A stretch of 64,000 bases of DNA, from the IMG/VR virus record IMGVR_UViG_3300042867_001289, positions 1 through 64,000 of that record. One strand, written 5' to 3'. Origin of the DNA: a virus. Each line of letters begins with the position of its first letter. Position 1 is the first letter of the stretch. Positions 35,727 through 61,343 of the stretch are shown here, piece after piece. Under the pieces are notes generated by a model, which was not told the origin of the DNA, searched no databases, and was given only the letters and a program-made list of their open reading frames with translations. The position numbers and the translations under genes were made by a program.

Positions 35727-35755
35727 ATCTAGCCGATGGGCCATACCCTTGTCAA
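35727..35755 (-). promoter_or_regulatory. Promoter of the KERR peptide 1
   Basis: TTGACA, 17 bp, CTAGAT, leader GAGTACATCACC. Confidence 0.75.
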
Positions 35756-35915
35756 GTCAATACGACAAGTTTCTGTGATGCGATTCTAGGCCTGCAATCT
35801 CTTGACGGGTACGAGTACCGCCGACAACCGAGAACGCGCCTAGAACGCTCTTGTGGACGCTCTAGAGCGAACATCCGCCGACTGATTAGCCTCACAAACA
35901 ATCTGCAACAATGAC
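35756..35915. repeat. Divergent-spacer repeat, copy 1
   Basis: About 150 bp conserved between divergent promoters: GATGCGATTCTAGGC near one end and GAACGCGCCTAGAACGC in the centre, with CTCTTGACGGGTACG between. Similar spacers lie at 36632, 37621, 38518 and 40180. Confidence 0.7.
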
Positions 35916-35944
35916 TTGACAAGGATATGGCCACCATGTAGTCT
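35916..35944 (+). promoter_or_regulatory. Promoter of the gene at 35974
   Basis: TTGACA, 17 bp, TAGTCT, leader AAGTACATCACC. Confidence 0.8.
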
Positions 35945-35973
35945 AAGTACATCACCTAGCGAAGGAGTACGAA

Positions 35974-36129
35974 GTGCACAACAGCCAATTTGACCGGGTC
36001 ATGCCGGGCGGAGGGTCCGACTGGGTCCACGCCGCCAACATGGCGGACGACCTAGCCGATGTCGATCACGACGACGACTACGACGACGACGACTACGACG
36101 AATGGCCGCCACGCCGAGAGGACTGGTGA
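35974..36129 (+). CDS. Small Asp-rich protein
   Basis: 51 residues from GTG with GAAGGAG upstream. The C-terminal half is an Asp/Tyr run (DHDDDYDDDDYDEW). Strongly acidic; DNA mimicry or metal binding is possible. Confidence 0.7.
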   Translation: MHNSQFDRVMPGGGSDWVHAANMADDLADVDHDDDYDDDDYDEWPPRREDW

Positions 36130-36135
36130 GCCACC

Positions 36136-36153
36136 GGGGGCCGAAAGGCCCCC
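36136..36153 (+). terminator. GNRA hairpin after 35974 gene
   Basis: GGGGGCC-GAAA-GGCCCCC, seven base pairs with a GNRA loop, no T run. Confidence 0.75.
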
Positions 36154-36258
36154 ACCTTCCCCTTTTTTCCTTTGCGTCCCGCACACCCCAAACCCCCACC
36201 ACCCCAACGGGACCCCCAAACACACCACCCACACCCCTGGAAGCTATCCGAAAAGCAC

Positions 36259-36320
36259 AAGCCCCGGCCCCCAGCCCTTCCCCCCAAACTTGTACCCCTT
36301 TTTGATGATTGGTCGGGGCT
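36259..36320. repeat. AGCCCCG...CGGGGCT intergenic repeat
   Basis: Full copy with AAGCCCCGGCCCCC start, ACCCCTTTTT centre and GTCGGGGCT end, between convergent genes. Confidence 0.8.
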
Positions 36321-36395
36321 GTCGAATCAACGTGAGGTTTGCACTAGCGGGGCCGCGAGGCAAGGGTGGAAGGCTTGCGCCCCCCCCTTGCGGGC

Positions 36396-36572
36396 TTAGC
36401 CCCACAGCCCCCCTTCGTCCTCAGCGCGACCGACATGCTCGGAAACAGCCTCGTCGCAGCAGTCCTCGCAGAGCAGCTCCGGCCCTGCGACGGTGATGTG
36501 CGTCCAAGTGGCGTCTGCGCCGCAGACTTCGCACTCGTGCCACACATCTAGTAGGTGAGTAAAAACGGCCAT
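36396..36572 (-). CDS. Small zinc-ribbon protein
   Basis: 58 residues from ATG 36572, directly behind the GTTTCACCAAC leader. WHECEVCGADATW and LLCEDCCDEAV give two CxxC pairs; the tail is acidic. Probably a nucleic-acid or protein-binding zinc knuckle. Confidence 0.78.
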   Translation of the reverse strand: MAVFTHLLDVWHECEVCGADATWTHITVAGPELLCEDCCDEAVSEHVGRAEDEGGLWG

Positions 36573-36602
36573 TGTTGGCCCCTTTCGGTTGGTGAAACAC
36601 TG

Positions 36603-36631
36603 ACAATACACCCTGCCGCCGAGGCTGTCAA
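36603..36631 (-). promoter_or_regulatory. Promoter of the gene at 36396
   Basis: TTGACA, 17 bp, TATTGT, leader AGTGTTTCACCAAC. Confidence 0.85.
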
Positions 36632-36800
36632 GCCAATACGACAAGTTTCTGTGATGCGATTCTAGGCGTGCAATCTCTTGACGGGTACGGATGCACCCGA
36701 GAACCGAGAACGCGCCGGAAACGTCCTTGTGAGCGTCCTGAGAGCAATATCCCCTAGGCGCTCGCAGTCGGTACCCCTGAAATCGGCATGCAGTAATGAC
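36632..36800. repeat. Divergent-spacer repeat, copy 2
   Basis: Nearly identical over its first half to copy 1 (CAAGTTTCTGTGATGCGATT, TTCTAGGCGTGCAATCTC), diverging in the centre. Confidence 0.75.
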
Positions 36801-36829
36801 TTGACAAGGGGACCGGCACCGTGTACAGT
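36801..36829 (+). promoter_or_regulatory. Promoter of the gene at 36860
   Basis: TTGACA, 17 bp, TACAGT, leader ATGTTTCACCAAC. Confidence 0.85.
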
Positions 36830-36859
36830 CAATGTTTCACCAACCGAAAGGGGCCGCAC

Positions 36860-37150
36860 ATGTGGCTAATAACTGATCCGTGGAAAGACCTGAACAAAGA
36901 GGGTCTGACCGCTTGGCAAGCGGCCCTGTCAAAGGACGCTTTCGAGAGAGTCGAAAGCGCTTTTAGGCAGGCGGACGGTCTCGGAATTCGCATCTACCGC
37001 GAACATGACGCGACAGACCGGCCAACGTACTATACGGGCCGCGGCAGTTACGAATATTTTGCGGAATTCGACAATTGCTGGATGAGAATCGAACCAGAGC
37101 GTGACGGCCTAGAGTTTAGGCAGAATATCTACGTCCACATGAAAGGTTGA
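36860..37150 (+). CDS. Small hypothetical protein
   Basis: 96 residues from the ATG after AAAGGGGCC; earlier in-frame starts lie inside the promoter. Helical N-terminus (WKDLNKEGLTAWQAAL), beta-rich C-terminus with many Tyr and Arg. No family recognised. Confidence 0.75.
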   Translation: MWLITDPWKDLNKEGLTAWQAALSKDAFERVESAFRQADGLGIRIYREHDATDRPTYYTGRGSYEYFAEFDNCWMRIEPERDGLEFRQNIYVHMKG

Positions 37151-37155
37151 GCGAA

Positions 37156-37173
37156 GGGGGCCGCAAGGCCCCC
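37156..37173 (+). terminator. GNRA hairpin
   Basis: GGGGGCC-GCAA-GGCCCCC just after the stop at 37150. Confidence 0.75.
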
Positions 37174-37236
37174 ACACTCGCGCACCCTCGCATGCGTCCC
37201 GCTATGGGAACCAGGCACCTGGAACCAAAGAAACAC

Positions 37237-37351
37237 AAGCCCCGCCCCCCAAACTCACCCCGAACCCTGACCCCCCCCTTCAGGAAAGGCAAGCCCCGTT
37301 CCCCCGAATCTTTCCCCCCAAAGTTTGTCCCCTTTTCTCAATTTCGGGGCT
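37237..37351. repeat. AGCCCCG...CGGGGCT intergenic repeat, two copies
   Basis: A partial copy (about 37237-37280) and a full copy (37290-37351, ending TTTCGGGGCT). Confidence 0.75.
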
Positions 37352-37416
37352 GCCGTGTTGAACGTGGAATCAAGTAGCGGGACGCCCTGAAGGGGGAGCC
37401 TTTCGGCCCCCCTAGC

Positions 37417-37563
37417 TCAGTCCTCCCATCCAAAGCGGGCGAGCCATTCCTCACGCTCACATTGGATCTCAGCTTGGTCATCAAGCTCAGCTTGGATTTC
37501 AGCTGCAAACTCGGTGTCAACCCAGTCTTGCCACTGTTGGGATAGGTTAGCTTCGATGGCCAT
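37417..37563 (-). CDS. Small acidic helical protein
   Basis: 48 residues (MAIEANLSQQWQDWVDTEF and REEWLARFGWED), ATG behind GTTTCACCAACGAAAGGGGC. All-helical and acidic. No family recognised. Confidence 0.7.
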   Translation of the reverse strand: MAIEANLSQQWQDWVDTEFAAEIQAELDDQAEIQCEREEWLARFGWED

Positions 37564-37591
37564 TTCGGCCCCTTTCGTTGGTGAAACACTC

Positions 37592-37620
37592 AACCTACTG
37601 CATGGCGGTCACCCTGTCAA
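37592..37620 (-). promoter_or_regulatory. Promoter of the gene at 37417
   Basis: TTGACA, 17 bp, TAGGTT, leader GAGTGTTTCACCAAC. Confidence 0.82.
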
Positions 37621-37802
37621 GTCATTAGAACAAATATCTCTGAGGCCGTTCTAGGCCGTTCTAGGCGGTCGATTGTCGGCCCGCTACCGATACCGCCAGA
37701 ATCGACGAACGCGCTCAGAACGCGCTCACAGTGGCCCTAGAACGAATATCCCCTAGACAGTCGGCAGTCGACAGAAAGAATTGAGATATCCCGTCTAATG
37801 GC
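37621..37802. repeat. Divergent-spacer repeat, copy 3
   Basis: Diverged copy with two adjacent GCCGTTCTAGG units and GAACGCGCTC repeats. Confidence 0.65.
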
Positions 37803-37831
37803 TTGACAGACATTCTCCCATAGAGTATCGT
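37803..37831 (+). promoter_or_regulatory. Promoter of the gene at 37865
   Basis: TTGACA, 17 bp, TATCGT, leader CAGTGTTTCACCA. Confidence 0.83.
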
Positions 37832-37864
37832 CAGTGTTTCACCACAAAGAAAGGGGCCAACAAC

Positions 37865-38056
37865 ATGGCTTCAGAAGATATGGGATGGGCTGTCTGTGAA
37901 GTCTGCGAAAGCGGCACTACAGACTCGGTAGTCATCGACACCGGCGAGGACCTTGCAATAGCGTGCCGGTCATGCTGGTGGGACTACATCGATGTCGAAT
38001 TCATCGATGGAGACCTCGATGCGGAGCGGGAATACCTGCAAGGCAGAGGGTTCTAG
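37865..38056 (+). CDS. Small zinc-ribbon protein
   Basis: 63 residues. AVCEVCESG and IACRSCWWDY form two CxxC pairs; the C-terminus is acidic (DVEFIDGDLDAEREYL). Same size class as the zinc-ribbon proteins at 36396 and 40412. Confidence 0.77.
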   Translation: MASEDMGWAVCEVCESGTTDSVVIDTGEDLAIACRSCWWDYIDVEFIDGDLDAEREYLQGRGF

Positions 38057-38150
38057 GACCAAAGGGGAGTGGGGCGCAAGCCTCACTCCCCAAAGTCGCG
38101 CCCACACTTCTCCGCCCCGCTACGAGAACCCCTGGAACCAAAGAAAAGCA

Positions 38151-38256
38151 AAGCCCCGGCCCCCCAATCCGCCCCCCAAAGCTGCACCCCTTTGGAAGCC
38201 CCGGCCCCAATCTTCCCCCCAAAAATTTGCACCCCTTTTTGGTGAGTATCGGGGCT
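38151..38256. repeat. AGCCCCG...CGGGGCT intergenic repeat, two copies
   Basis: Two overlapping copies ending ATCGGGGCTT, between convergent genes. Confidence 0.75.
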
Positions 38257-38323
38257 TGTGGGTTTTTTGTAGCTGCCCCTTTCGGGACTGCTGGGGTTGG
38301 GGAGGCTTGCGCCCCCCCTTCCC

Positions 38324-38455
38324 TCAGTTCCACGGTGCGTTGCGTTCCGCAACCTCCTCGGCGCTCATCTCGTCCGAGATGTGTTGGTTCTTGACCAACT
38401 CCCACTCGGCCATCAGGATGGCATGAAACCTTGCGTCAACCTCTTCGTCAGACAC
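38324..38455 (-). CDS. Small acidic protein with APWN end
   Basis: 43 residues from GTG after AGAGGGGAC. MSDEEVDARFHAILMAEWEL, ending ISDEMSAEEVAERNAPWN. The ending resembles that of the gene at 39148 (VSDAM...APWN). Confidence 0.65.
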   Translation of the reverse strand: MSDEEVDARFHAILMAEWELVKNQHISDEMSAEEVAERNAPWN

Positions 38456-38486
38456 TTAGTGTCCCCTCTCTTTGTGGTGAGTACCT

Positions 38487-38517
38487 ATTATGCACACACC
38501 TTGCCCCATCCTGTCAA
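38487..38517 (-). promoter_or_regulatory. Promoter of the gene at 38324
   Basis: TTGACA and CATAAT separated by 19 bp, longer than the usual 17. Confidence 0.65.
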
Positions 38518-38678
38518 GTCAATAGAACAAGTTTCTTTGAGGCCGTTCTAGGCGTGCAATCGGGAACCCGCTACAAGTACCGCCGAGAACCGAGAACGCG
38601 CCGGAAACGCGCTTGTGAGCGTTCTGGGCGCAATATCCCCTAGACACTTAGCCTCACAAATAAACCTGCAATAAAGAC
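38518..38678. repeat. Divergent-spacer repeat, copy 4
   Basis: Shares CGTTCTAGGCGTGCAATC and GAACGCGCCGGAAACGC with copies 1 and 2. Confidence 0.7.
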
Positions 38679-38709
38679 TTGACAAGGTAGGGGAAGGTGT
38701 GCGCATAAT
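38679..38709 (+). promoter_or_regulatory. Promoter of the gene at 38741
   Basis: TTGACA and CATAAT separated by 19 bp, leader AGTGTCTCACCAA. Divergent partner of the other 19-bp promoter. Confidence 0.7.
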
Positions 38710-38740
38710 AGTGTCTCACCAAGCGACAAGGAGTTGCGCA

Positions 38741-38941
38741 ATGCATAACAACATAACCGCTCTAGCGTTGGCACTGAATCAGTGTGACCGCTGCGAAGAG
38801 TGGGTCCTAGAATCGCTCACTAGCGATTACAGCGGGGACGGGGAAGTGTGCGAGCTTTGCTACGACCAAAGCGTTGAGGACTCGCACGAATGGCAAGCAT
38901 TCTGCGACGACCACAGAAGGGGAGGCTGGACCACGGGATGA
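38741..38941 (+). CDS. Zinc-ribbon protein, HRRGG family copy 1
   Basis: 66 residues. NQCDRCEEWVLESLTSD, GEVCELCYDQ and HEWQAFCDDHRRGGW. Paralogue of the protein at 44100: the same two CxxC pairs, EW-x2-F and DHRRGG motif. The conserved HRRGG end suggests a functional contact site. Confidence 0.8.
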   Translation: MHNNITALALALNQCDRCEEWVLESLTSDYSGDGEVCELCYDQSVEDSHEWQAFCDDHRRGGWTTG

Positions 38942-38946
38942 GCAAA

Positions 38947-38964
38947 GGGGGCCGAAAGGCCCCC
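38947..38964 (+). terminator. GNRA hairpin
   Basis: GGGGGCC-GAAA-GGCCCCC after 38741 gene. Confidence 0.75.
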
Positions 38965-39147
38965 AAACCCGCGCACCGCCTTATGCGTCCCGCACCCAGA
39001 CTTCCACCAAAATAATCTCGGGGCTCACAAATATCAAACCCCTGGCGACCCGCTCATCACCAAAGCCCCGGCCCCCCGAAACCGATTTCTGAGACCTCCT
39101 CGGTTTCGGGACTGCGAAACCGGTGGAGGGCCGAAGCCCCCCCTTGC

Positions 39148-39378
39148 TCAGTTCCACGGTGCGGCAGCCTCAGCGGGCGGCAGCATCGCATCGCTAACGT
39201 GCGCACGCCTGCGTCGGGCAAGCTCAGCGGCAAGCTCAGCCGCTTCGACCTGACGAGTGGTCTCGGCAGCCTCAGCCGCCTCAAGCTCGGCAGCCTTGCG
39301 TAGCAAGGCCCTGACCATCACTGCAAGCCCTGCGAAGGCCACTGACCATTGCAGGATGAACGGTATCCAGTCTCTCAT
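39148..39378 (-). CDS. Small membrane-anchored coiled-coil protein
   Basis: 76 residues from ATG 39378. An N-terminal membrane helix (WIPFILQWSVAFAGLAVMV) is followed by an Ala/Glu coiled coil (KAAELEAAEAAETTRQVEAA), RRRR and the APWN ending. Predicted N-out or N-in single-pass inner-membrane protein. Confidence 0.72.
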   Translation of the reverse strand: MRDWIPFILQWSVAFAGLAVMVRALLRKAAELEAAEAAETTRQVEAAELAAELARRRRAHVSDAMLPPAEAAAPWN

Positions 39379-39407
39379 GGTAACTCCTGTCCGTTGGTGA
39401 AACCTCA

Positions 39408-39436
39408 AAGCTACAGCATGGCCGATACCCTGTCAA
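39408..39436 (-). promoter_or_regulatory. Promoter of the gene at 39148
   Basis: TTGACA, 17 bp, TAGCTT, leader GAGGTTTCACCAAC. Confidence 0.82.
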
Positions 39437-39454
39437 GTCAATGCTACGGGCAGC

Positions 39455-39470
39455 CTGAGAACGGTCTCAG
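39455..39470. promoter_or_regulatory. Dyad operator CTGAGA-N4-TCTCAG
   Basis: Perfect dyad with spacer ACGG, between the divergent promoters at 39408 and 39489. Confidence 0.7.
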
Positions 39471-39488
39471 CTTCAGCAGTCAACCGAT

Positions 39489-39517
39489 TTGACAGGCCCC
39501 ATTGCATGGTGTAAGGT
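39489..39517 (+). promoter_or_regulatory. Promoter of the KERR peptide 2
   Basis: TTGACA, 17 bp, TAAGGT, leader ATACATATCACCAA. Confidence 0.82.
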
Positions 39518-39549
39518 ATACATATCACCAAGAGCAAGGGAGCCAAGCA

Positions 39550-39657
39550 ATGACAAAGTCAGAACGTCGGGAAGCCCGCCACCGCGACCAATCAGTTCGC
39601 TGGGGAGGTGGCTACCGGCGAGATCAAAAGTCTCGCCAGTCGAAAGAACGCCGATAG
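39550..39657 (+). CDS. Tiny basic peptide, KERR family copy 2
   Basis: 35 residues: MTKSERREARHRDQ, then GGGYRRDQKSRQSKERR. Same layout as the peptide at 35584, which is on the other strand; conservation at both ends indicates a real protein despite its size. Confidence 0.72.
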   Translation: MTKSERREARHRDQSVRWGGGYRRDQKSRQSKERR

Positions 39658-39663
39658 CGGCGA

Positions 39664-39681
39664 GGGGGCCGAAAGGCCCCC
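39664..39681 (+). terminator. GNRA hairpin
   Basis: GGGGGCC-GAAA-GGCCCCC seven bases after the stop. Confidence 0.75.
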
Positions 39682-39785
39682 ACCTTCGCGTACCGCTTTA
39701 CCAGTCCCGCACCCAAACTCGCCCCCAGACCCACCCCCCCCTTTTTTTGTAACCTCGGGGCTCACCTGGCTATCAAAAGAGGGAC

Positions 39786-39856
39786 AAGCCCCGACCCCCA
39801 AACTTTGCCCCCAAAATCTGCGCCCCCTTTTTTGCGAGGTGATCGGTTTCGGGGCT
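39786..39856. repeat. AGCCCCG...CGGGGCT intergenic repeat
   Basis: Full copy (AAGCCCCGACCCCC start, CGCCCCCTTTTTT centre, TTTCGGGGCT end). Confidence 0.8.
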
Positions 39857-39927
39857 GCAAAATCAACGTGGAGTTGGACCAGCGGGGCCAACGGGAAGGG
39901 GGAGGCCGAAGCCCCCCCCTTTTCCGG

Positions 39928-40119
39928 CTACCACCATTTGGTGGGGTCGGTACCCAGTGGGTACCATGTGACCTCCGCAAACGGGATGGTGCCGCTAGAA
40001 CCGTCATCCGACCACACAACCGGTACTCCGATTGTTGGGTCGTCCAGATTGGTGATGAAGGCCGTAAGGCCGATCCTTCCCGACCTGTCGGCTACCTCTG
40101 TGTCGTTTCGGATGTGCAT
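39928..40119 (-). CDS. Small hypothetical protein
   Basis: 63 residues from ATG 40119 with GAGGAG upstream. Beta-rich (RIGLTAFITNLDDPTIGVPV) ending GTDPTKWW. No family recognised. Confidence 0.7.
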   Translation of the reverse strand: MHIRNDTEVADRSGRIGLTAFITNLDDPTIGVPVVWSDDGSSGTIPFAEVTWYPLGTDPTKWW

Positions 40120-40150
40120 GACTAACTCCTCATTGCTTGGTGAAACACTG

Positions 40151-40179
40151 AACTTACACCCTAGGGCCGAGGCTGTCAA
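40151..40179 (-). promoter_or_regulatory. Promoter of the gene at 39928
   Basis: TTGACA, 17 bp, TAAGTT, leader CAGTGTTTCACCAA. Confidence 0.83.
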
Positions 40180-40350
40180 GTCAATACAACAAGTTTCTGT
40201 GATGCGATTCTAGGCGTACAACCCCTTGACGGGTGCTAGCACCGCCAGAATCCGTAAACGTGCCTAGAACGCGCTCACAATGGCCCTAGCGGCAATACCC
40301 CCTAGACACTCGGCATCCTAGGCGGTCGGCAGTCGGCATGAAATAAAGAC
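40180..40350. repeat. Divergent-spacer repeat, copy 5
   Basis: Shares GTTTCTGTGATGCGATTC and TAGGCG with copies 1 and 2, and GTGCCTAGAACGCGCTC in its centre. Confidence 0.72.
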
Positions 40351-40379
40351 TTGACAAGGGTATGGGCAGGGTGTAAGGT
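40351..40379 (+). promoter_or_regulatory. Promoter of the gene at 40412
   Basis: TTGACA, 17 bp, TAAGGT, leader AAGTACATCACCAA. Confidence 0.82.
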
Positions 40380-40411
40380 AAGTACATCACCAAGCAGAGA
40401 GGGACCCGCAC

Positions 40412-40594
40412 ATGTGGGAAGTAATCAAGCACGCCCGTATCGAATGCCACGACTGTCAGTGCATGACAACCGTTGCCGATATGGGAACCATCTACCTAGG
40501 CTACACCTTCGAACTCGGCGGAGAGGAAATACAAGCCACCGCCTTCGCATGCAAGTCATGCCAATGGGACCGCTGGGAAGTGGAGTACGACTGA
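40412..40594 (+). CDS. Small zinc-ribbon protein
   Basis: 60 residues. IECHDCQCMTTV and FACKSCQWDRW give two CxxC pairs around a beta hairpin (GTIYLGYTFELGGEEI). Third member of the short zinc-ribbon class in this zone. Confidence 0.77.
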   Translation: MWEVIKHARIECHDCQCMTTVADMGTIYLGYTFELGGEEIQATAFACKSCQWDRWEVEYD

Positions 40595-40600
40595 GACAAC

Positions 40601-40618
40601 GGGGGCCGAAAGGCCCCC
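40601..40618 (+). terminator. GNRA hairpin
   Basis: GGGGGCC-GAAA-GGCCCCC after the stop at 40594. Confidence 0.75.
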
Positions 40619-40678
40619 ACAGTCGCGCCCGCACTCGCATGCGTCCCGCACCCTGGAACCAGGAACAAAACAAACAAC

Positions 40679-40737
40679 AGCCCCGCCCCCCAGTCTCACC
40701 CCAAAACCCTGGCCCCTTTTCAGAAATCTCGGGGCTC
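40679..40737. repeat. AGCCCCG...CGGGGCT intergenic repeat
   Basis: Full copy ending TCTCGGGGCT. Confidence 0.78.
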
Positions 40738-40783
40738 ACAAACATTGTCATTCCACGCCCCAGCGGGACCCGGAAGGGGAGGG

Positions 40784-40876
40784 TCAGTCCTTCCACTTCC
40801 TGACCCACCGCTCGTTCCAGAGTGCCAGCGCACCCATACTCACTGCCCATCCTGTAGCTATTGCTAGGTATGTCAT
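40784..40876 (-). CDS. 30-residue membrane peptide
   Basis: MTYLAIATGWAVSMGALALW followed by NERWVRKWKD: one membrane helix and a basic tail. Starts behind an AGGAGCC site and the standard leader, so it is expressed despite its size. Could be an inner-membrane modulator. Confidence 0.65.
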   Translation of the reverse strand: MTYLAIATGWAVSMGALALWNERWVRKWKD

Positions 40877-40906
40877 TGCTTGGCTCCTGTTCCTTGGTGA
40901 AACACT

Positions 40907-40935
40907 ATTGTACCATACACCTTGCACCTTGTCAA
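40907..40935 (-). promoter_or_regulatory. Promoter of the membrane peptide
   Basis: TTGACA, 17 bp, TACAAT, leader AGTGTTTCACCAA. Confidence 0.87.
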
Positions 40936-40973
40936 GTCGAAAGGCGAGTGACCGTAGCCACCCGCCTAACAAC

Positions 40974-41183
40974 TCACTCAGCTAACGCCGGTTCTCCCGA
41001 CATTTTTCGCATAACCGCTGTCAGCCGCTCGTATGCGTCGATCAACTCTAGCCCCTGCTCCGGGCTGTAGTTCACGTTGCTCCCGTCCTGTAGCTGCACT
41101 GCCATAAGCTCAGTCGCTTCGATAATAAGCTCCGAAGCTCTGAAGCACTTCTGGAGTGCCGTCCAGTCTTTCTTCTGGTCCAT
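40974..41183 (-). CDS. Small acidic helical protein
   Basis: 69 residues from ATG 41183. Helical (WTALQKCFRASELIIEATEL, LELIDAYERLTAVMRKM). No family recognised; its own promoter precedes it. Confidence 0.72.
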   Translation of the reverse strand: MDQKKDWTALQKCFRASELIIEATELMAVQLQDGSNVNYSPEQGLELIDAYERLTAVMRKMSGEPALAE

Positions 41184-41211
41184 GATGACCTTTCTTTGTA
41201 GGTGAAACACT

Positions 41212-41240
41212 ATTCTTGCACACTGCAGGGCACAATGCAA
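41212..41240 (-). promoter_or_regulatory. Promoter of the gene at 40974
   Basis: TTGCAT, 17 bp, AAGAAT, leader AGTGTTTCACC. Variant -35. Confidence 0.75.
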
Positions 41241-41257
41241 ATCGTGCTACAGGCAAC

Positions 41258-41273
41258 CTGAGAGGCCCCTCAG
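41258..41273. promoter_or_regulatory. Dyad operator, variant
   Basis: CTGAGAGGCCCCTCAG between divergent promoters. Confidence 0.6.
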
Positions 41274-41291
41274 ACAACCCGCACGGTGGAA

Positions 41292-41320
41292 TTGACAAAC
41301 TGCACCCTACATGCAATACT
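41292..41320 (+). promoter_or_regulatory. Promoter of the gene at 41350
   Basis: TTGACA, 17 bp, AATACT, leader AGTGTTTCACCAACC. Confidence 0.85.
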
Positions 41321-41349
41321 AGTGTTTCACCAACCAGCAAGGAGCCACA

Positions 41350-41469
41350 ATGGACAACGACAATTCAGACAATGACGACCTCACCACCTCAGAGATCGAA
41401 GAGATGTTACTCGTCATTGAAATGTTCAAAGAAATCGAAGCGGGAACCCCACCCGCACGAACCGAGTAA
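41350..41469 (+). CDS. 39-residue acidic peptide
   Basis: MDNDNSDNDDLTTSEIEEML followed by a helical segment. AAGGAGCC site four bases before ATG. No family recognised. Confidence 0.68.
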   Translation: MDNDNSDNDDLTTSEIEEMLLVIEMFKEIEAGTPPARTE

Positions 41470-41473
41470 CAGA

Positions 41474-41499
41474 AAGGGCCACCCGCAAGGGTGGCCCTT
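41474..41499 (+). terminator. Long GNRA hairpin
   Basis: Perfect 11-bp stem with GCAA loop (AAGGGCCACCC arm), directly after the stop. Confidence 0.85.
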
Positions 41500-41518
41500 C
41501 TGCCCATCCACGGGACTA

Positions 41519-41779
41519 TCAGATAGTAACAACATTCCCAGGCGGGACTAACGCAACACGATGAGTCTCAACCCAACGCTCACCAGTCCCGGCAACAGGA
41601 GTCACCAACAGGTCAAGATGCCCGAAGCGAAGCCGTGCCTCGACAACGTTGACAGAAATCTGCAGGTCTTCCATCTTCATGACGCCTGACATGCCCCGCA
41701 AGGCTGCGATGTCTTCGGCGGTGATCTTCTTGTTATCGCCGTGTTCGTCCCGGGTTGAAAAGATTGTTCTTGTTGACAT
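41519..41779 (-). CDS. Small hypothetical protein
   Basis: 86 residues from ATG 41779 with AGGAGA upstream. Basic N-terminus then beta-rich (VVEARLRFGHLDLLVTPVAG, HRVALVPPGNVVTI). Resembles the 43654 protein in layout (MST start, amide-rich beta domain) but not clearly in sequence. Confidence 0.75.
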   Translation of the reverse strand: MSTRTIFSTRDEHGDNKKITAEDIAALRGMSGVMKMEDLQISVNVVEARLRFGHLDLLVTPVAGTGERWVETHRVALVPPGNVVTI

Positions 41780-41807
41780 TTGTTCTCCTAATAGTTGGTA
41801 GGTCTGT

Positions 41808-41836
41808 ACCTTACAGGGTGTTGGTGGCTGTGTCAA
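41808..41836 (-). promoter_or_regulatory. Promoter of the gene at 41519
   Basis: TTGACA, 17 bp, TAAGGT, leader ACAGACCTACCAAC, an intermediate between the two leader classes. Confidence 0.8.
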
Positions 41837-41909
41837 ATCGGTGGTATCGAACTTGGGATCAGCTGTCGGGACTGCGGAGAGAGGGAGGGCTTTCGCCCCC
41901 CCCTCAGGG

Positions 41910-42074
41910 TCACTCTGAGCGGAACCCCTCTTCTTGCGAGATTTCACATCGCCAGTCCCAGATCAGGCGCTCTTTCTCAAGCTTGGCGGCTCTCGTCATC
42001 TCGTCGATGCGATCCTGCCACTCTTGGTATCCTCCCTGAACCCACAGGGCCGACAGTTCTAGTTCGTTTAGCAT
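41910..42074 (-). CDS. Small helical protein
   Basis: 54 residues: MLNELELSALWVQGGYQEW, then DEMTRAAKLEKERLIWDWRC. Starts after GGAGGACGAA; all-helical. No family recognised. Confidence 0.68.
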   Translation of the reverse strand: MLNELELSALWVQGGYQEWQDRIDEMTRAAKLEKERLIWDWRCEISQEEGFRSE

Positions 42075-42106
42075 TTCGTCCTCCTCGGACTTGTTGGTGA
42101 AACACT

Positions 42107-42135
42107 ATTATTGCACACTGTACGGCGCAATGCAA
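42107..42135 (-). promoter_or_regulatory. Promoter of the gene at 41910
   Basis: TTGCAT, 17 bp, AATAAT, leader AGTGTTTCACCAAC. Confidence 0.8.
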
Positions 42136-42151
42136 ATCGGATCATCGGCAA

Positions 42152-42169
42152 CCTGAGAACAGTCTCAGG
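42152..42169. promoter_or_regulatory. Dyad operator CCTGAGA-N4-TCTCAGG
   Basis: Perfect 7-bp arms with spacer ACAG, between divergent promoters. Confidence 0.75.
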
Positions 42170-42186
42170 GAACCCATACGGTAAGC

Positions 42187-42215
42187 TTGACAGACTGCAC
42201 CCTGTATGGCATACT
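42187..42215 (+). promoter_or_regulatory. Promoter of the gene at 42244
   Basis: TTGACA, 17 bp, CATACT, leader GGAGTCTCACCAAC. Confidence 0.83.
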
Positions 42216-42243
42216 GGAGTCTCACCAACGAACAGGAGCAGTT

Positions 42244-42414
42244 ATGAATGACCTAGATATGATGATGGCGCTATGCGGCCAGCCAACAGCCGCAGAGACC
42301 GCACAAGAAGCACTGAGCTTCCTGCTCGTGGCTTGCGCAGTCGCAGGGCCAGCAAACAACGAGGAGCTAATCCTCGCAGCAAACATGCTCGCTGACGCAA
42401 TCAACAACCTCTAA
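42244..42414 (+). CDS. Small Ala-rich helical protein
   Basis: 56 residues: MNDLDMMMALCGQPTAAETA, FLLVACAVAGPANNEELIL. Moderately hydrophobic helices; may touch the membrane. No family recognised. Confidence 0.7.
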   Translation: MNDLDMMMALCGQPTAAETAQEALSFLLVACAVAGPANNEELILAANMLADAINNL

Positions 42415-42419
42415 GCGAC

Positions 42420-42450
42420 AAGGGGGGGGGCCGCAAGGCCTCCCCCTTTT
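42420..42450 (+). terminator. G-run hairpin with GCAA loop
   Basis: A run of G then CC-GCAA-GG and TCCCCCTTTT: hairpin plus short T run. Confidence 0.7.
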
Positions 42451-42476
42451 GCGCGCACCCACTTCTGCGTCCCGCC

Positions 42477-42707
42477 CTAGAAAAGCGTTTCCGTTTGCGG
42501 CGGGGCCTTCAACTTCTTCAACATCATACAAGTCTTACACATCCACCCCATCGGGGCTGTCGGCAAAGCCACAGCGTGAGCGCCACCGCCCTTACGGTTC
42601 TCAACCCAGCCAGTCACCTTCTTCCAGGTGCCCCGCTCTTTGGGGTTGATTTCCATTCCGCATTCTTCGCAAGTAAATAGTGGTGGGAGTCCCGATGTGT
42701 TTTTCAT
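42477..42707 (-). CDS. Zinc-ribbon protein, leaderless
   Basis: 76 residues. LFTCEECGMEINPKERGTW and GWMCKTCMMLKKL form two CxxC pairs flanking a basic loop. ATG 42707 starts seven bases after the -10 box, so there is no leader and no ribosome site. It differs from its neighbours, which all use the GTTTCACC leader. Confidence 0.82.
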   Translation of the reverse strand: MKNTSGLPPLFTCEECGMEINPKERGTWKKVTGWVENRKGGGAHAVALPTAPMGWMCKTCMMLKKLKAPPQTETLF

Positions 42708-42714
42708 ACTTGGA

Positions 42715-42743
42715 ATTGTACCAGCCCCAAACCCGTAAGTCAA
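42715..42743 (-). promoter_or_regulatory. Leaderless promoter of the zinc-ribbon gene
   Basis: TTGACT, 17 bp, TACAAT, then seven bases to ATG. Confidence 0.83.
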
Positions 42744-42802
42744 GGATATATTTGAGCGTGGCGGGACGCATGAGAGGGGGGAGGGTCTCGCCCTCCCCTG
42801 TC

Positions 42803-43021
42803 TCACTCCGCGGTGTAAACCTCGATCACTCGCCCGCCGAATGGCAAGAGCCATACGGTGCCGAGGAAGGTCTCTACCCCGTCCGTCTCTAGGGCCGCCG
42901 TGGGGTCCCCATGAGAGTCACGCTTGCTAGGTATACCCACCGTGTAGGTAGCCTCACCCCTAGCGTCCTCCCAAAGGATGACCCTTTGAGCGTCTTGTTG
43001 CCAATCATTCAATGTTTGCAT
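42803..43021 (-). CDS. Small hypothetical protein
   Basis: 72 residues from ATG 43021 with GAAAGG upstream. MQTLNDWQQDAQRVILWEDA, then beta-rich to GGRVIEVYTAE. No family recognised. Confidence 0.72.
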   Translation of the reverse strand: MQTLNDWQQDAQRVILWEDARGEATYTVGIPSKRDSHGDPTAALETDGVETFLGTVWLLPFGGRVIEVYTAE

Positions 43022-43050
43022 TGCACTGCCTTTCATTAGGTGATGACACT

Positions 43051-43079
43051 AGTATGGCATACACCTTACACCTTGTCAA
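43051..43079 (-). promoter_or_regulatory. Promoter of the gene at 42803
   Basis: TTGACA, 17 bp, CATACT, leader AGTGTCATCACC. Confidence 0.82.
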
Positions 43080-43097
43080 ATGCTAGCTGAGAACATC

Positions 43098-43113
43098 CTG
43101 AGAACGCCCTCAG
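43098..43113. promoter_or_regulatory. Dyad operator, one mismatch
   Basis: CTGAGA-ACGC-CCTCAG between divergent promoters. Confidence 0.65.
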
Positions 43114-43131
43114 ACAAACCATACGGTGCAT

Positions 43132-43160
43132 TTGACAGATTGCACCCTACATGGCATACT
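43132..43160 (+). promoter_or_regulatory. Promoter of the gene at 43189
   Basis: TTGACA, 17 bp, CATACT, leader AGTGTTTCACCAA. Confidence 0.86.
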
Positions 43161-43188
43161 AGTGTTTCACCAAACGACAGGAGTTACA

Positions 43189-43401
43189 GTGACAAACAGA
43201 AACGACATAGTAGGAATGTGGCGGGCAGCCTGCCAAGCTGACCCAAGCTTTGACGAGCCGCTAGAAGAGTGGCTAGACCAATGGGAATGGCAACAGCAAG
43301 CCGTTCGCAAAGTGCAGGACGCATGGGGAGTGCAGGATAGTGATATCCCACCCGCATGGTTCGATCCCACGCTCTGTGGTGAGAGCTGGGATGGCGAATG
43401 A
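43189..43401 (+). CDS. Small acidic Trp-rich protein
   Basis: 70 residues from GTG after AGGAG. NRNDIVGMWRAACQADPSFD, EEWLDQWEWQQQ, ending CGESWDGE. Acidic and helical. No family recognised. Confidence 0.72.
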   Translation: MTNRNDIVGMWRAACQADPSFDEPLEEWLDQWEWQQQAVRKVQDAWGVQDSDIPPAWFDPTLCGESWDGE

Positions 43402-43406
43402 GTTGA

Positions 43407-43424
43407 GGGGGGCTACGGCCCCCC
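43407..43424 (+). terminator. GC hairpin
   Basis: GGGGGGC-TAC-GGCCCCCC after 43189 gene. Confidence 0.7.
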
Positions 43425-43521
43425 ACCTCTTCGCGCCCGCACTTATGCGCCCCGCTACGAGAAGCTGCGCTAAGAACAACCAGGAGCCCCGCTAAATCAC
43501 TTCACCAAGCAGTGAAGATCA

Positions 43522-43576
43522 CAGCCCCGCCCCCAATTTCCCCCCAAAGCCTGACCCCTTTCTAAATTTCGGGGCT
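43522..43576. repeat. AGCCCCG...CGGGGCT intergenic repeat
   Basis: Copy with CAGCCCCGCCCCC start and TTTCGGGGCT end. Confidence 0.77.
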
Positions 43577-43653
43577 TTGGGACAACATGGGCACACACCC
43601 CTATCGGGACTGCGGAGGCGGGGGAAGGGCCGTAGCCCTTCCCCCCTTTTCCG

Positions 43654-43932
43654 TTAGCCGATTTCGCTGGCCATGATGGTCAGCTTTGCTGCCAACAGCT
43701 TGAGAGCCTCAGCCTGATCAGCTAGAGAGCCTTTCAGGAAGATGTTTGTGAAGGTTTTCTCTGCCGGGAAAGAGATTGACACAAACGGCTCAACGCGATC
43801 CCCCTTCACGAGGGTAATTGTTGCGTCTCTGACGGCTTCACGATCAACCCCGTGGATGTTGACGCTACCGTCAACATTGATGGACTTGATTTGGTCGCCT
43901 ACTGTCATGTAGGCGGTTGCGGATGTACTCAT
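43654..43932 (-). CDS. Small beta-rich protein
   Basis: 92 residues from ATG 43932. SATAYMTVGDQIKSINVDGS, VEPFVSISFPAEKTFTNIF and a C-terminal helix (DQAEALKLLAAKLTIMASEI). Mixed alpha/beta; no family recognised. Confidence 0.75.
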   Translation of the reverse strand: MSTSATAYMTVGDQIKSINVDGSVNIHGVDREAVRDATITLVKGDRVEPFVSISFPAEKTFTNIFLKGSLADQAEALKLLAAKLTIMASEIG

Positions 43933-43961
43933 GCTCTCTCCTTGTTGGTTGGTGTACTGCA

Positions 43962-43990
43962 ACTGTACTCTATAGGGTGTACCCCGTCAA
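43962..43990 (-). promoter_or_regulatory. Promoter of the gene at 43654
   Basis: TTGACG, 17 bp, TACAGT, leader GCAGTACACCAACC. Confidence 0.8.
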
Positions 43991-44279: not shown

Positions 44280-44284
44280 GCGAA

Positions 44285-54956: not shown

Positions 54957-55322
54957 ATGGTTCTAGATCCGTTCACGTTTTTTTTAGTAAGCCTTGCCGT
55001 TTATCGTGTTGTTAGGTTTTGCCTGTACGACAGTTTGATAGCCCCGCTCAGGGATCGCCTGTTTGAGGGTTTGTCTTTTGATCGTGAGTATGACGACGGG
55101 ACTGTTGAGTTGTTTGGTCGTCCTGGGTTGCGGGGCTGGTTTTTTTCTTTGTTGTCTTGTTATTGGTGTTTTGGGGTTTGGGTTGCGGGGCTGTTTAGTT
55201 TGGTTTGGGTTGTGTGGGGTGGTTTGGGTTGCGGGGCTGGTGTTGTGGTTTGGTTGGCTTTGTCTGTTGTCGGGGCTTGGTTGCGTATGTTTGAGCTTTT
55301 GGTTGTGGGTTTTATTGACTGA
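54957..55322 (+). CDS. Membrane protein, DUF1360-like
   Basis: 121 residues with AAGGAG eight bases before. FFLVSLAVYRVVRFCLYD (first helix), a short arginine loop, LLSCYWCFGVWVAGLF with the WC-x-G-V-W signature of DUF1360 membrane proteins, then LGCGAGVVVWLALSVVGAWL. Likely a three-helix inner-membrane protein. T/G-rich codon use differs from its neighbours, pointing to another source. Coupled in one unit with 54582 gene. Confidence 0.8.
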   Translation: MVLDPFTFFLVSLAVYRVVRFCLYDSLIAPLRDRLFEGLSFDREYDDGTVELFGRPGLRGWFFSLLSCYWCFGVWVAGLFSLVWVVWGGLGCGAGVVVWLALSVVGAWLRMFELLVVGFID

Positions 55323-55351
55323 GAGTTTTGTCAGGTTTCTGGGCAGACGAT

Positions 55352-56186: not shown

Positions 56187-56596
56187 ACACAGACATCTAC
56201 GGAAACCAAATCACTACACACTCGCTAAACATCGACTGGAACTTGCTAGCTAAGCAAAAGAAGCTAGTTCTAGACTTTCTAAATAGTGAGAGTCCAACAC
56301 AATTTGCCGACGTATGGAACAACAGCGACGGCCAGGATCTGATGGATGGACTCTTAAACGTCCTTGACAGCTTGCAAGATCAAGCCGCAGAAGAGCTTGG
56401 CGAAGAAGCCGTATTTGGGCCATGGTGGAATTACCGAACGCCTACCCATAAAATTGTCTGGTCAGAAGGACATGGCTTTGTCGAAGATGAACAATTTTTT
56501 ACAAACATTATGGATGCGAAGAATTACAAGGCCGAACACCCATTGGGCAAGTTTGCGTCTGTGGTTCCCATACCTGACGGAAGCGGCTTAATCTGA
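56183..56596 (+). CDS. Hypothetical acidic protein
   Basis: 137 residues: TTHSLNIDWNLLAKQKKLVL, DLMDGLLNVLDSLQDQAAEE, WNYRTPTHKIVWSEGHGFV. Helical N-terminus, aromatic beta C-terminus. The stop lies inside a hairpin (56581-56620). Confidence 0.75.
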   Translation: MNTDIYGNQITTHSLNIDWNLLAKQKKLVLDFLNSESPTQFADVWNNSDGQDLMDGLLNVLDSLQDQAAEELGEEAVFGPWWNYRTPTHKIVWSEGHGFVEDEQFFTNIMDAKNYKAEHPLGKFASVVPIPDGSGLI

Positions 56597-56620
56597 GAGG
56601 ATCCTCAGGTTCAGCCGCTT
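56581..56620 (+). terminator. Hairpin spanning the stop codon
   Basis: AAGCGGCT / AGCCGCTT arms with inner CTGAG/CTCAG; the TGA stop of 56183 gene lies within it. Confidence 0.7.
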
Positions 56621-58133: not shown

Positions 58134-58136
58134 AGC

Positions 58137-58167
58137 TGAGTGGCCTCACAGCTAGTGGGGCCACTCA
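58137..58167 (+). terminator. GC hairpin
   Basis: TGAGTGGCC / GGCCACTCA arms, adjoining the next -35. Confidence 0.78.
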
Positions 58168-58227: not shown

Positions 58228-58488
58228 ATGATTGACGAAGAGACAGACCTACCAATCGACACAACCGAACCAAGGTTCCCAGAAGTAGAACTTACGGTTG
58301 ACATCTTTGGAACAGAAGGAAACGCCTTCTTTCTTATCAGCAAGGTGCGTAGGGAGCTGGCATATCACGATGCGAGCGAAGAGGAAGTCGAAGAGTTTGA
58401 TAAGGAAGCCAAGTCTGGCGATTACCAGAATGTGCTTGACACAATTGGTAGGTGGATTACCTTTACTTACTTTCCAGAGCCTTTCTAA
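58228..58488 (+). CDS. Small acidic protein
   Basis: 86 residues from ATG 58228 (an upstream in-frame ATG is part of the leader motif). VELTVDIFGTEGNAFFLISK, then HDASEEEVEEFDKEAKSGDY, RWITFTYF. The layout strand-helix-acidic helix is common in small phage proteins; no named family. Confidence 0.78.
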   Translation: MIDEETDLPIDTTEPRFPEVELTVDIFGTEGNAFFLISKVRRELAYHDASEEEVEEFDKEAKSGDYQNVLDTIGRWITFTYFPEPF

Positions 58489-58498
58489 GAACCTTCTC

Positions 58499-58532
58499 AG
58501 TGTCCCCCTTGACAAGCAGTCGGGGGGACACT
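58499..58532. terminator. Terminator hairpin enclosing the next promoter's -35
   Basis: AGTGTCCCCC / GGGGGACACT perfect 10-bp arms; TTGACA starts at the loop. Confidence 0.8.
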
Positions 58533-58537
58533 ACAAT
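58509..58537 (+). promoter_or_regulatory. Promoter of the gene at 58570
   Basis: TTGACA, 17 bp, TACAAT, leader GTACACATACCAACC. Confidence 0.88.
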
Positions 58538-58569
58538 GTACACATACCAACCAACAAGGAGCCAAAACA

Positions 58570-59817: not shown

Positions 59818-59905
59818 GAATTCTGTCAGGTTGCATCACATCCTGTGCTCTGCTTCAGCCCCTGACAGCTAGGGTCAGATCGGCTCCCCGCTGGTCTGGC
59901 CCGAC

Positions 59906-59934
59906 TTGACAAAGCAAATACTACCTGCTATTAT
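59906..59934 (+). promoter_or_regulatory. Promoter of the gene at 59965
   Basis: TTGACA, 17 bp, TATTAT, leader GTACACATACCAACC. Confidence 0.88.
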
Positions 59935-59964
59935 GTACACATACCAACCAACAAGGAGCCAGCA

Positions 59965-60225
59965 ATGAACGAAGTAATCGCAGTATTCAGCCAGAGTGAG
60001 CTTACTAGACTCAAATTGGCCGTCATGGACAGAAGAGACAAGCTAAGAGAATGCGCAGACCCAAGGTCTTCAGACATGGAAGAGCTTGGAGAGAAGCTGA
60101 ATCAAATAGAAAGTCGAAATGACATGCGGGATCGGGCAGATCAATGGGATCTACTTGAGGCTATAGAGAAGTCCGATTACTTCGCCATCAAAGCAGAGGC
60201 TAGAGCCCAGTCAATGCCAATTTGA
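59965..60225 (+). CDS. Small coiled-coil protein
   Basis: 86 residues: VFSQSELTRLKLAVMDRRDK, MEELGEKLNQIESRND, DQWDLLEAIEKSDYFAIKAE. Helical. Its stop overlaps the -35 of the next promoter. Confidence 0.77.
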   Translation: MNEVIAVFSQSELTRLKLAVMDRRDKLRECADPRSSDMEELGEKLNQIESRNDMRDRADQWDLLEAIEKSDYFAIKAEARAQSMPI

Positions 60226-60250
60226 CAAAGTGGCTAGTAGCTGCTACACT
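60222..60250 (+). promoter_or_regulatory. Promoter of the genes at 60283 and 60462
   Basis: TTGACA, 17 bp, TACACT, leader GTACACATACCAAC; the upstream stop TGA is part of the -35. Confidence 0.86.
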
Positions 60251-60282
60251 GTACACATACCAACAAACACAAGGAGCCAGTA

Positions 60283-60462
60283 ATGAACGTAAACGAATTT
60301 TTAGAAGCAGTAATGACACCGCAATACCATGCGGCCATCCAAGAAGTCTTCGAGACAATCCTGCCCGAGATGTACGACGGCACACTGCCCGACACGATTC
60401 TGGCAGCCATGCAAGACATCAGCTGGGAATTTGGAATCGAATTCAACGGGGAGATGCTGTAA
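60283..60462 (+). CDS. Small acidic helical protein
   Basis: 59 residues: MNVNEFLEAVMTPQYHAAIQ, VFETILPEMYDGTLPDTI, FGIEFNGEML. Stop and next start overlap (TAATG). Confidence 0.7.
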   Translation: MNVNEFLEAVMTPQYHAAIQEVFETILPEMYDGTLPDTILAAMQDISWEFGIEFNGEML

Positions 60463-60725
60463 TGTCTAACAAATATGAAGTATCAGTACATACGCCACAC
60501 CCAAGCATGGAAAATCGCCTTGCACCGGGCTACTGGCGAGCAAACCAAGAGAATGTTGACCAAATGTTCGATGCAGGAGCAACAGAAATAGGTCTTTATG
60601 TTGTTCTAGATGGCGGCAACCGCAGATTTGTGAAGCGGATTTCTGAAGCTTCACGATTTGCTGACGCTCTACGCTTTGCGTACAAGCGGTACGCTCCTTC
60701 TAGTTCTAGAAGAGCATTTTCTTAA
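60462..60725 (+). CDS. Small hypothetical protein
   Basis: 87 residues: MSNKYEVSVHTPHPSMENRL, EIGLYVVLDGGNRRFVKRIS, basic end (YKRYAPSSSRRAFS). Alpha/beta; the layout recalls small nucleic-acid binders. No family recognised. Confidence 0.73.
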   Translation: MSNKYEVSVHTPHPSMENRLAPGYWRANQENVDQMFDAGATEIGLYVVLDGGNRRFVKRISEASRFADALRFAYKRYAPSSSRRAFS

Positions 60726-60843
60726 GAACGTTCCTGATCCCTATACCCGATCAGGAGCTAGTCCTCGGCACCACTGGCCTCCTCTCTCTCAGAGGTGCCG
60801 GGGCTATTTTTAAAAGAGCTTGACCCCGCCCTAGCGTACCGTC

Positions 60844-61260
60844 CTACGCTACGGTGGTGCGGTCAGCATCAGCAACGCGGGGGGAAGTCGATGGCTCCTC
60901 TTCCCTCCGCCTTGCTATTTCCAGAATCTGATGAACCCGTTGGCGTGATAGACCATAGGTCTCCCCAATGACTTGCAAGGTCACACCACTTGACCGCATC
61001 GCCACAATCTCAGTGTTACGGCCTGACTTAGACTTAGGACCAGGCTGAAGAACCCAAGCCCAATCTGCGCGGCCTTCAAGAGCAATGATCATGTCTTGCT
61101 GTAGCTCGCCTAGGCGGTAGTATGTGCGAATCGAGGATACCCACCGCCCTAGTGGTACAGTGCCCTCCATGTGCTTCACAGGGACTCTAGCGGTGCCTTC
61201 TCGGTCGATATAGGTATCAAGTGCTTCTAGGTACTTTGTTGCTTTGTTTAGTGATTTCAT
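60844..61260 (-). CDS. Helicase-associated domain plus sigma-region-4-like HTH regulator
   Basis: 138 residues. TARVPVKHMEGTVPLGRWVS, then SIRTYYRLGELQQDMIIALE resembles a helicase-associated (HA) repeat; GVTLQVIGETYGLSRQRVHQ is a sigma-70 region-4-like helix-turn-helix. Minus-strand gene with a promoter that places ATG six bases after the -10 box and has a perfect palindrome in its spacer, so autoregulation is likely. Best candidate for a regulator of the small-gene promoters (inference). Confidence 0.82.
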   Translation of the reverse strand: MKSLNKATKYLEALDTYIDREGTARVPVKHMEGTVPLGRWVSSIRTYYRLGELQQDMIIALEGRADWAWVLQPGPKSKSGRNTEIVAMRSSGVTLQVIGETYGLSRQRVHQILEIARRREEEPSTSPRVADADRTTVA

Positions 61261-61266
61261 ACTGCC

Positions 61267-61295
61267 ATGTTACATCATCTAGATGACTTTGTAAA
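61267..61295 (-). promoter_or_regulatory. Leaderless, probably autoregulated promoter
   Basis: TTTACA (61290-61295), 17 bp, TAACAT (61267-61272), ATG six bases later. The perfect palindrome TCATCTAGATGA (61275-61286) lies in the spacer. Confidence 0.78.
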
Positions 61296-61314
61296 GCCAT
61301 ACCGCAGCATCAAC

Positions 61315-61343
61315 TTGACAACCCCTGTTTCAACATATACAAT
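61315..61343 (+). promoter_or_regulatory. Promoter of the replication operon
   Basis: TTGACA, 17 bp, TACAAT, leader ACCCACCTACAACAAACG; GAGCC before ATG 61373. Confidence 0.86.

Follow-up and report, generated by a model that had tools for sequence, protein, structure and literature searches.

A phage array of 53 sigma70-type promoters with a fixed-distance palindrome as putative regulator site

Between 35.7 and 61.3 kb of the window, the 64,000-nucleotide stretch of DNA analysed here (bases 1-64000 of the virus record IMGVR_UViG_3300042867_001289, 128,048 bases in full), 53 sigma70-type promoters stand on both strands. A 16-bp palindrome (dyad), CTGAGANNNNTCTCAG, lies upstream of their -35 boxes and is correctly placed at 28 of the 53, against a mean of 0.02 and a maximum of 1 in shuffled sequence. 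On balance, the palindrome is best regarded as the putative site of a dimeric regulator acting as an activator. By a similarly modest preference, the array appears to be an early or accessory phage region in which nearly all small genes are each served by a host-sigma70 promoter of their own. Phage early regions are mostly read as operons, but some fifty genes are wired singly here, and the divergent pairs around one symmetric site offer a natural series for studying how a single regulator acts on two promoters that face opposite ways.

The promoters were found through the consensus together with a gene start. The spacer is 17 bp long in 50 of the 53, 18 bp in one (35755, minus strand) and 19 bp in two (~38.5 kb, minus, and ~38.68 kb, plus); the -35 box starts with TTGAC in 48 or 49 promoters and is a full TTGACA in 39. 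Hexamers at -35 and -10, 16-18 bp apart and at gene starts, are thus present as for host sigma70/sigmaA. An independent scan of 35.6-52 kb returned 38 promoter-like sites against 6.9 in shuffles; applied to the second half of the record (64-128 kb), it gave chance-like matches only. These results bear out three claims of a sequence-only reading of this DNA: more than 40 cloned promoters, one per small gene; a TTGACA-type -35 almost always followed by a 17-bp spacer; and likeness of the promoters on the two strands, seen in exact copies of the leader sequence GTTTCACCAAC on both.

35726-61402, both strands: whole array of single-gene sigma70-type promoters (consensus and gene start)
First bases of -35 boxes (1): 35755 (-), 35916 (+), 36631 (-), 36801 (+), 37620 (-), 37803 (+), ~38517 (-), ~38680 (+), 39436 (-), 39489 (+), 40179 (-), 40351 (+), 40935 (-), ~41240 (-), 41292 (+)
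First bases of -35 boxes (2): 41836 (-), 42135 (-), 42187 (+), 43079 (-), 43132 (+), 43990 (-), 44043 (+), 44817 (-), 44868 (+), 45698 (-), 45939 (+), 46750 (-), 46803 (+)
First bases of -35 boxes (3): 47538 (-), 47647 (+), 48484 (-), 48766 (-), 48817 (+), 49214 (+), 49964 (-), 50015 (+), 50818 (-), 50870 (+), 51671 (-), 51722 (+)
First bases of -35 boxes (4): 52163 (+), 53346 (+), 53926 (+), 55352 (+), 55914 (+), 56626 (+), 57586 (+), 58169 (+), 58509 (+), 59159 (+), 59906 (+), 60222 (+), 61315 (+)

The upstream palindrome keeps a fixed geometry and is confined to the array region. In 35-62 kb there are 21 copies with a 4-base gap, and no other gap length has more than 3; matches in the window number 23 against 3.1 in shuffles, and 20 distinct dyads with at most 2 mismatches can be told apart by their coordinates. 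The dyad centre lies 25 bp from the first base of the -35 box at 14 promoters and 26 bp from it at 12; in 3 cases it is one helical turn nearer, at 15-16 bp, and one promoter has dyads at both positions. With transcription taken to start 7 nt after the -10 box, the centres fall at about -60.5/-61.5 and -50.5/-51.5, on the same face of the helix, so that a dimer-type palindrome near -61.5, as at class I promoters, is what is found. Most divergent pairs at 39.4-51.7 kb have a single palindrome midway, equidistant from both -35 boxes, and the pairs at 36-40 kb have longer, repeated spacers with, for some, degenerate dyads at 27 bp. Dyads of the plus-strand section keep their distance although they lie at, or next to, stop codons of unrelated genes upstream, so simple copying does not account for every one.

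39455-39470: dyad CTGAGAacggTCTCAG, common to 39436 (-) and 39489 (+)
41258-41273: dyad, common to ~41240 (-) and 41292 (+)
42153-42168: perfect dyad, common to 42135 (-) and 42187 (+)
43098-43113: dyad, common to 43079 (-) and 43132 (+); a second, overlapping copy at 43087
44009-44024: perfect dyad, common to 43990 (-) and 44043 (+)
44835-44850: dyad, common to 44817 (-) and 44868 (+)
45905-45920: dyad, promoter 45939 (+)
46769-46784: dyad, common to 46750 (-) and 46803 (+)
47556-47571: dyad, promoter 47538 (-)
47614-47629: dyad, promoter 47647 (+)
48784-48799: dyad, common to 48766 (-) and 48817 (+)
49982-49997: dyad, common to 49964 (-) and 50015 (+)
50836-50851: dyad, common to 50818 (-) and 50870 (+)
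51689-51704: degenerate dyad (3 mismatches), between 51671 (-) and 51722 (+), equidistant
52140-52155: dyad, promoter 52163 (+); centre 15 bp from -35, one helical turn nearer
55319-55334: dyad, promoter 55352 (+); adjoins the upstream stop codon
55891-55906: dyad with 3 mismatches, promoter 55914 (+); centre 15 bp from -35
56593-56608: dyad, promoter 56626 (+); overlaps the upstream stop codon
57553-57568: dyad, promoter 57586 (+)
58136-58151: dyad, promoter 58169 (+)
58485-58500: dyad, promoter 58509 (+); centre 16 bp from -35

No change in the arms of correctly placed dyads is compensated on the opposite arm, which points to the site of a DNA-binding dimer and not to an RNA hairpin; a hairpin or terminator was rejected on this ground and because the dyads are untranscribed between divergent promoters. 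A 95%-identical strain (L018) keeps all the complete dyads and all the leaders that it covers.

The genes are laid out in two ways. From 35.7 to 51.8 kb their direction alternates, giving ~18 back-to-back pairs at intervals of roughly 0.9 kb, and from 51.8 to 60.7 kb nearly all lie on the plus strand, mostly singly. Entire control modules of 88-163 bp are repeated while most of the attached genes differ, which suggests that the array grew, at least in part, by copying of the control module; a 127-bp spacer of divergent pairs at 35.7-40.4 kb, for example, recurs at 35750 (35750-35876), 36626, 38512 and 40174. Some attached genes are related, such as the family at 46404 (-), 47171 (-) and 48875 (+), 51-58% identical. 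Within 60 nt after the stop codon, 20 of 39 genes at 36-51.6 kb have a G+C-rich hairpin, often GGGGGCC-GNAA-GGCCCCC, compared with ~10% of random windows; neither these hairpins, found at about half of the genes there, nor the upstream palindrome had been noticed by the sequence-only reading. Between convergent genes at 35361-43562 there are also C-rich repeats (AGCCCCGCCCCC..CCCCTTTT), with the plus strand C-rich and G-poor, which could serve Rho-type termination.

The leaders, measured from the presumed start to the start codon, are 21-27 nt long, with one of 31, and consist of 44% A, 29% C, 9% T and 18% G. In the columns around +1 to +8 there are 2 G in 392 cells (p ~1e-49), and the information content of the leader is far above that of the adjoining spacer. 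The sequence-only reading had distinguished two leader classes, and both are real: class A (GTTTCACC) at 20 promoters, 36.6-50.0 kb, and class B (GTACACAT) at 11 promoters, all on the plus strand, 50.9-60.2 kb. A third, class C (for example TGTACCTATCACCTAACAGAAAGAGTC), at 22 promoters and mostly on the minus strand, had been overlooked. GTTTCACCAAC is found 43 times at up to 2 mismatches (19.5 expected), with 10 exact copies, all within 36.6-50.1 kb; GTACACATACCAAC is found 18 times at up to 3 mismatches (4.0 expected), with 7 exact copies, all within 55.9-60.3 kb.

46803-46858, plus strand: class A promoter and leader, TTGACA-17-CATAAT-AGAGTTTCACCAACAAGGGAGCCACCA-ATG
46692-46750, minus strand: class C promoter and leader, divergent partner of the 46803 promoter, TTGACG-17-TATAGT-TGTACCTATCACCTAACAGAAAGAGTCAAC-ATG
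58509-58569, plus strand: class B promoter and leader, TTGACA-17-TACAAT-GTACACATACCAACCAACAAGGAGCCAAAACA-ATG

Leaders described earlier as far longer than a promoter needs thus turn out to be short: the conserved block spans the presumed start site, and about half of the leader is the Shine-Dalgarno region, with an AGGAG-type ribosome site. Folded with 20 nt of the following sequence, they have a mean minimum free energy of -3.4 kcal/mol, compared with -9.6 kcal/mol for random 46-nt windows of the region. A structured RNA element was rejected, the leaders being no more structured than shuffles of their own composition. Since composition explains the weak structure, the leader fits better as an open start and translation cassette than as a binding site. 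In L018 the promoter at 60222 is gone and the leader with its ribosome site is intact; this agrees with a translational role, though the promoter may also have been lost recently.

From these observations, we envisage that the palindrome is bound by a dimeric protein, most likely a product of the phage itself, which contacts RNA polymerase in the geometry of a class I activator, so that one bound dimer would switch on both flanking divergent genes; the leaders would set efficient, uniform start and translation, and the array would have expanded as the divergent control module was copied and different genes were attached. That the regulator is probably encoded by the phage follows from a search of 84,980 bacterial and archaeal genomes, in which this dyad-promoter geometry is no commoner than by chance. 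A host regulon was accordingly set aside, as the search returned 3 matches in those species genomes, in unrelated taxa and at about chance, for the perfect dyad only and in a set from which the host may be missing. A MarR-like protein tried as the dyad binder has no dyad with at most 2 mismatches near its gene, which makes this candidate less likely.

Several observations weigh against activation through the palindrome. With -35 boxes close to consensus, the promoters might need no activator, and 25 of the 53 lack a good dyad at the expected position. A dyad at -51 is unusual for a class I activator. No dyad is present at the promoters of the two helix-turn-helix candidates (60844-61260 and, in genome coordinates, 68454-68915), and distant relatives that share the gene-by-gene promoter style (L041, L044, L049 and L058) have no array and no dyads with at most 2 mismatches at their promoters. 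Because several of the divergent modules were copied from one another recently, the 28 dyad cases do not count as 28 separate events. The low folding energy of the leaders follows their base composition (z ~0 against composition-matched shuffles).

Strong -35 boxes that require no activator would also suit an operator, at which a phage or host repressor shuts the array off, for example once the early phase is over or during dormancy; palindromes at fixed positions are typical of operators, and mycobacteriophage regulons with many repressor sites are known (PMC9283540). We nevertheless think this unlikely. A site centred at -61 leaves the core contacts of RNA polymerase uncovered, and operators need no helical phase, yet the dyads keep to 25-26 or 15-16 bp; a scan of proteins, though not exhaustive, recognised neither an integrase nor an immunity repressor. 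It is the helical phase, fixed near -61, that favours an activator touching RNA polymerase over a repressor. Rather improbable, in our view, is that there is no common regulator at all and that promoter modules were copied and shuffled by recombination, their likeness reflecting descent and selection for strong host promoters. This is the idea of a mobile promoter cassette, as in T4-type early promoters. Repeat families of 88-163 bp do span whole divergent modules, and a gene replacement sets L018 apart from the window, its breakpoints falling at gene boundaries near 60.2-60.7 kb. Against this, conservation is patchy in a functional pattern, in that the -35 box, the -10 box, the start region and the dyad are kept and the spacer between them is not, and the plus-strand dyads keep their distance in unrelated sequence.

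The sequence-only reading had placed a regulon switch in the leader, bound by a protein or RNA or setting translation. A common regulon is supported, but the evidence places the switch at the palindrome, at about -61/-51; translation fits the Shine-Dalgarno half of the leader, and nothing found requires protein or RNA binding. A point in favour of a bound leader comes from class A, in which TGTTTCAC, half of the bacterial parS site, occurs in 16 copies where 2.4 are expected in the window, all 16 in class A leaders (36592-50053), so that a ParB-type protein might bind there; the intact leader downstream of the lost promoter 60222 can be counted on the same side. The full parS palindrome, searched for, gave one match with 3 mismatches against 0.36 expected, and the phage ParB-like protein shows the ParB N-terminal domain only. 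Moreover, the three classes differ, sharing no more than richness in A and C, lack of G and, mostly, ACC(A/T)A, and the leader length is ordinary. We regard a leader-borne switch as very improbable.

A second signal covers the array as a whole. The hexamer CGGGRC occurs at 125 sites (79 CGGGGC, 46 CGGGAC), all within 35,365-65,170 of the record, and is absent from both strands of the other 98 kb; only three 6-mers, counted once per complementary pair, are absent outside this domain, and CGGGGC and CGGGAC are two of them. It continues as CGGGRCT at 86 of the 125 sites, with a density per kb of 12.7 in convergent gaps, 1.6 in coding sequence and 0 in 3.7 kb of divergent promoter gaps. L018 keeps all but two of the 34 sites in its share of the domain, and two of the kept sites differ at the R base only. 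In a distant relative (L049/L041), the first 16.1 kb hold 27 sites and the following 17.4 kb hold none (p ~3e-9), and its kin L058 also carries sites of this type. That presence and absence hold on both strands points to a DNA-level signal.

About 35364-63255: window part of the CGGGRC(T) domain (L006 600-1175)
60844-61260, minus strand: gene of a 138-amino-acid protein with a helicase-associated domain and a sigma70 region-4-like helix-turn-helix; candidate regulator

The gene at 60844-61260 has a perfect 16-bp palindrome, CATCATCTAGATGATG, at ~61273-61288 in its promoter, and its transcript looks leaderless, because the -10 box lies only 6 nt before the ATG. The recognition stretch of its protein (YGLSRQRVHQILE) is identical in this phage and in the group of distant relatives, with an overall identity of 39%, and its structural model has two helical parts of modest confidence (predicted local distance difference test, pLDDT, 71). 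That this protein reads CGGGRCT is only a hypothesis. We tentatively propose, as a doubtful extension, that the ~125 CGGGRC sites label a 30-kb early domain (35.4-65.2 kb), the rest of the genome being purged of them, and that a phage protein, possibly that of 60844-61260, acts on the domain as a block while the palindromes switch single promoters. Such a reader might, for instance, silence the early domain, or end its transcription, as the late genes take over. To our knowledge, no phage has been described whose early domain is defined by such an address label; if a phage protein does read the domain-limited heptamer, it would give a handle on how a phage tells early from late DNA.

The array is a variant on known phage promoter arrays. 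At CRP-type class I promoters, a palindromic dimer site lies near -61.5, with helical phasing and sharing between divergent promoters; the CRP site itself, TGTGA-N6-TCACA, differs in sequence, and here a phage regulon of dozens of promoters is concerned. The start-associated sequences (SAS) and extended SAS (ESAS) of Cluster K mycobacteriophages are repeated start-site cassettes with AGGAGCC before many small non-structural genes; they are restricted to a single genome region, and roughly half have an upstream inverted repeat (PMC3203893). The present array resembles them in its repeated start-site cassettes with AGGAGCC before many small non-structural genes, its confinement to one region and its upstream inverted repeats at about half of the promoters. 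However, the ESAS repeats adjoin the start-associated sequence with variable spacers, whereas the dyad here keeps to about -61, a long way ahead of a complete -35/-10 promoter, and is common to divergent pairs, and the SAS 13-mer GGGATAGGAGCCC has 0 matches at up to 2 mismatches. T4 early promoters number dozens, are strong host-sigma70 promoters with extra conserved positions beyond -35/-10 and stand before small accessory genes (PMC2988021); they have UP elements and an extended -10, and, unlike this array, no fixed-distance palindrome and no back-to-back pairs sharing a site. The L5-type stoperators of Cluster A are regulator sites in many copies over the genome, asymmetric 13-mers oriented with transcription (PMC9283540). 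The dyad is symmetric and promoter-bound, and the CGGGRCT domain resembles stoperators more than the dyads do; the stoperator consensus GGTGGMTGTCAAG is at chance level (4 against 3.1 expected). Cluster O mycobacteriophages carry many copies of a 17-bp palindrome thought to bind a dimeric phage protein (PMC4351075), mostly away from promoters, whereas nearly all dyads here lie at a fixed distance from one.

A motif scan of related genomes had been proposed earlier. Scans of viral contigs for the promoter-leader pattern recovered it only in the near-identical record IMGVR_UViG_3300042450_002567 and in L018; other matches were chance or single sites. A group with a 45% identical primase (L041, L044 and L049; also L058) has single-gene TTGACN-17 promoters and A/C-rich leaders, for example CACACCTA. 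As these few distant genomes have such promoters without dyads, the gene-by-gene promoter style appears to be older than the dyad system of the array. At 60222-60725, where L018 shows its gene replacement, the upstream gene of L018 reads through into the leader of the next gene.

The record belongs to a tailed phage with a contractile tail, as its proteins match terminase, portal, prohead protease, major capsid protein, tail sheath, baseplate wedge and tape measure. The closest TerL relatives are Gordonia phages (43%), and a gene like that of mycobacteriophage L5 gp82 lies at 35027-35359; the host is therefore probably an actinobacterium. The Gordonia phages have ordinary operons, and the right half of phage Gray is without an array; megablast retrieved no related phage from INPHARED. 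The neighbouring minus-strand genes at 30788-31708 and 31708-32238 match the histone-deacetylase-like and dual-specificity-phosphatase families, which is odd for a phage. GGATCC is strongly avoided over the whole record (8 against ~65 expected); inside 35.3-65.3 kb, CGATCG is found 0 times against 11.5 expected and TGGAGC 0 times, with 29 outside. Restriction-site avoidance that differs between domains is a possible explanation of this pattern.

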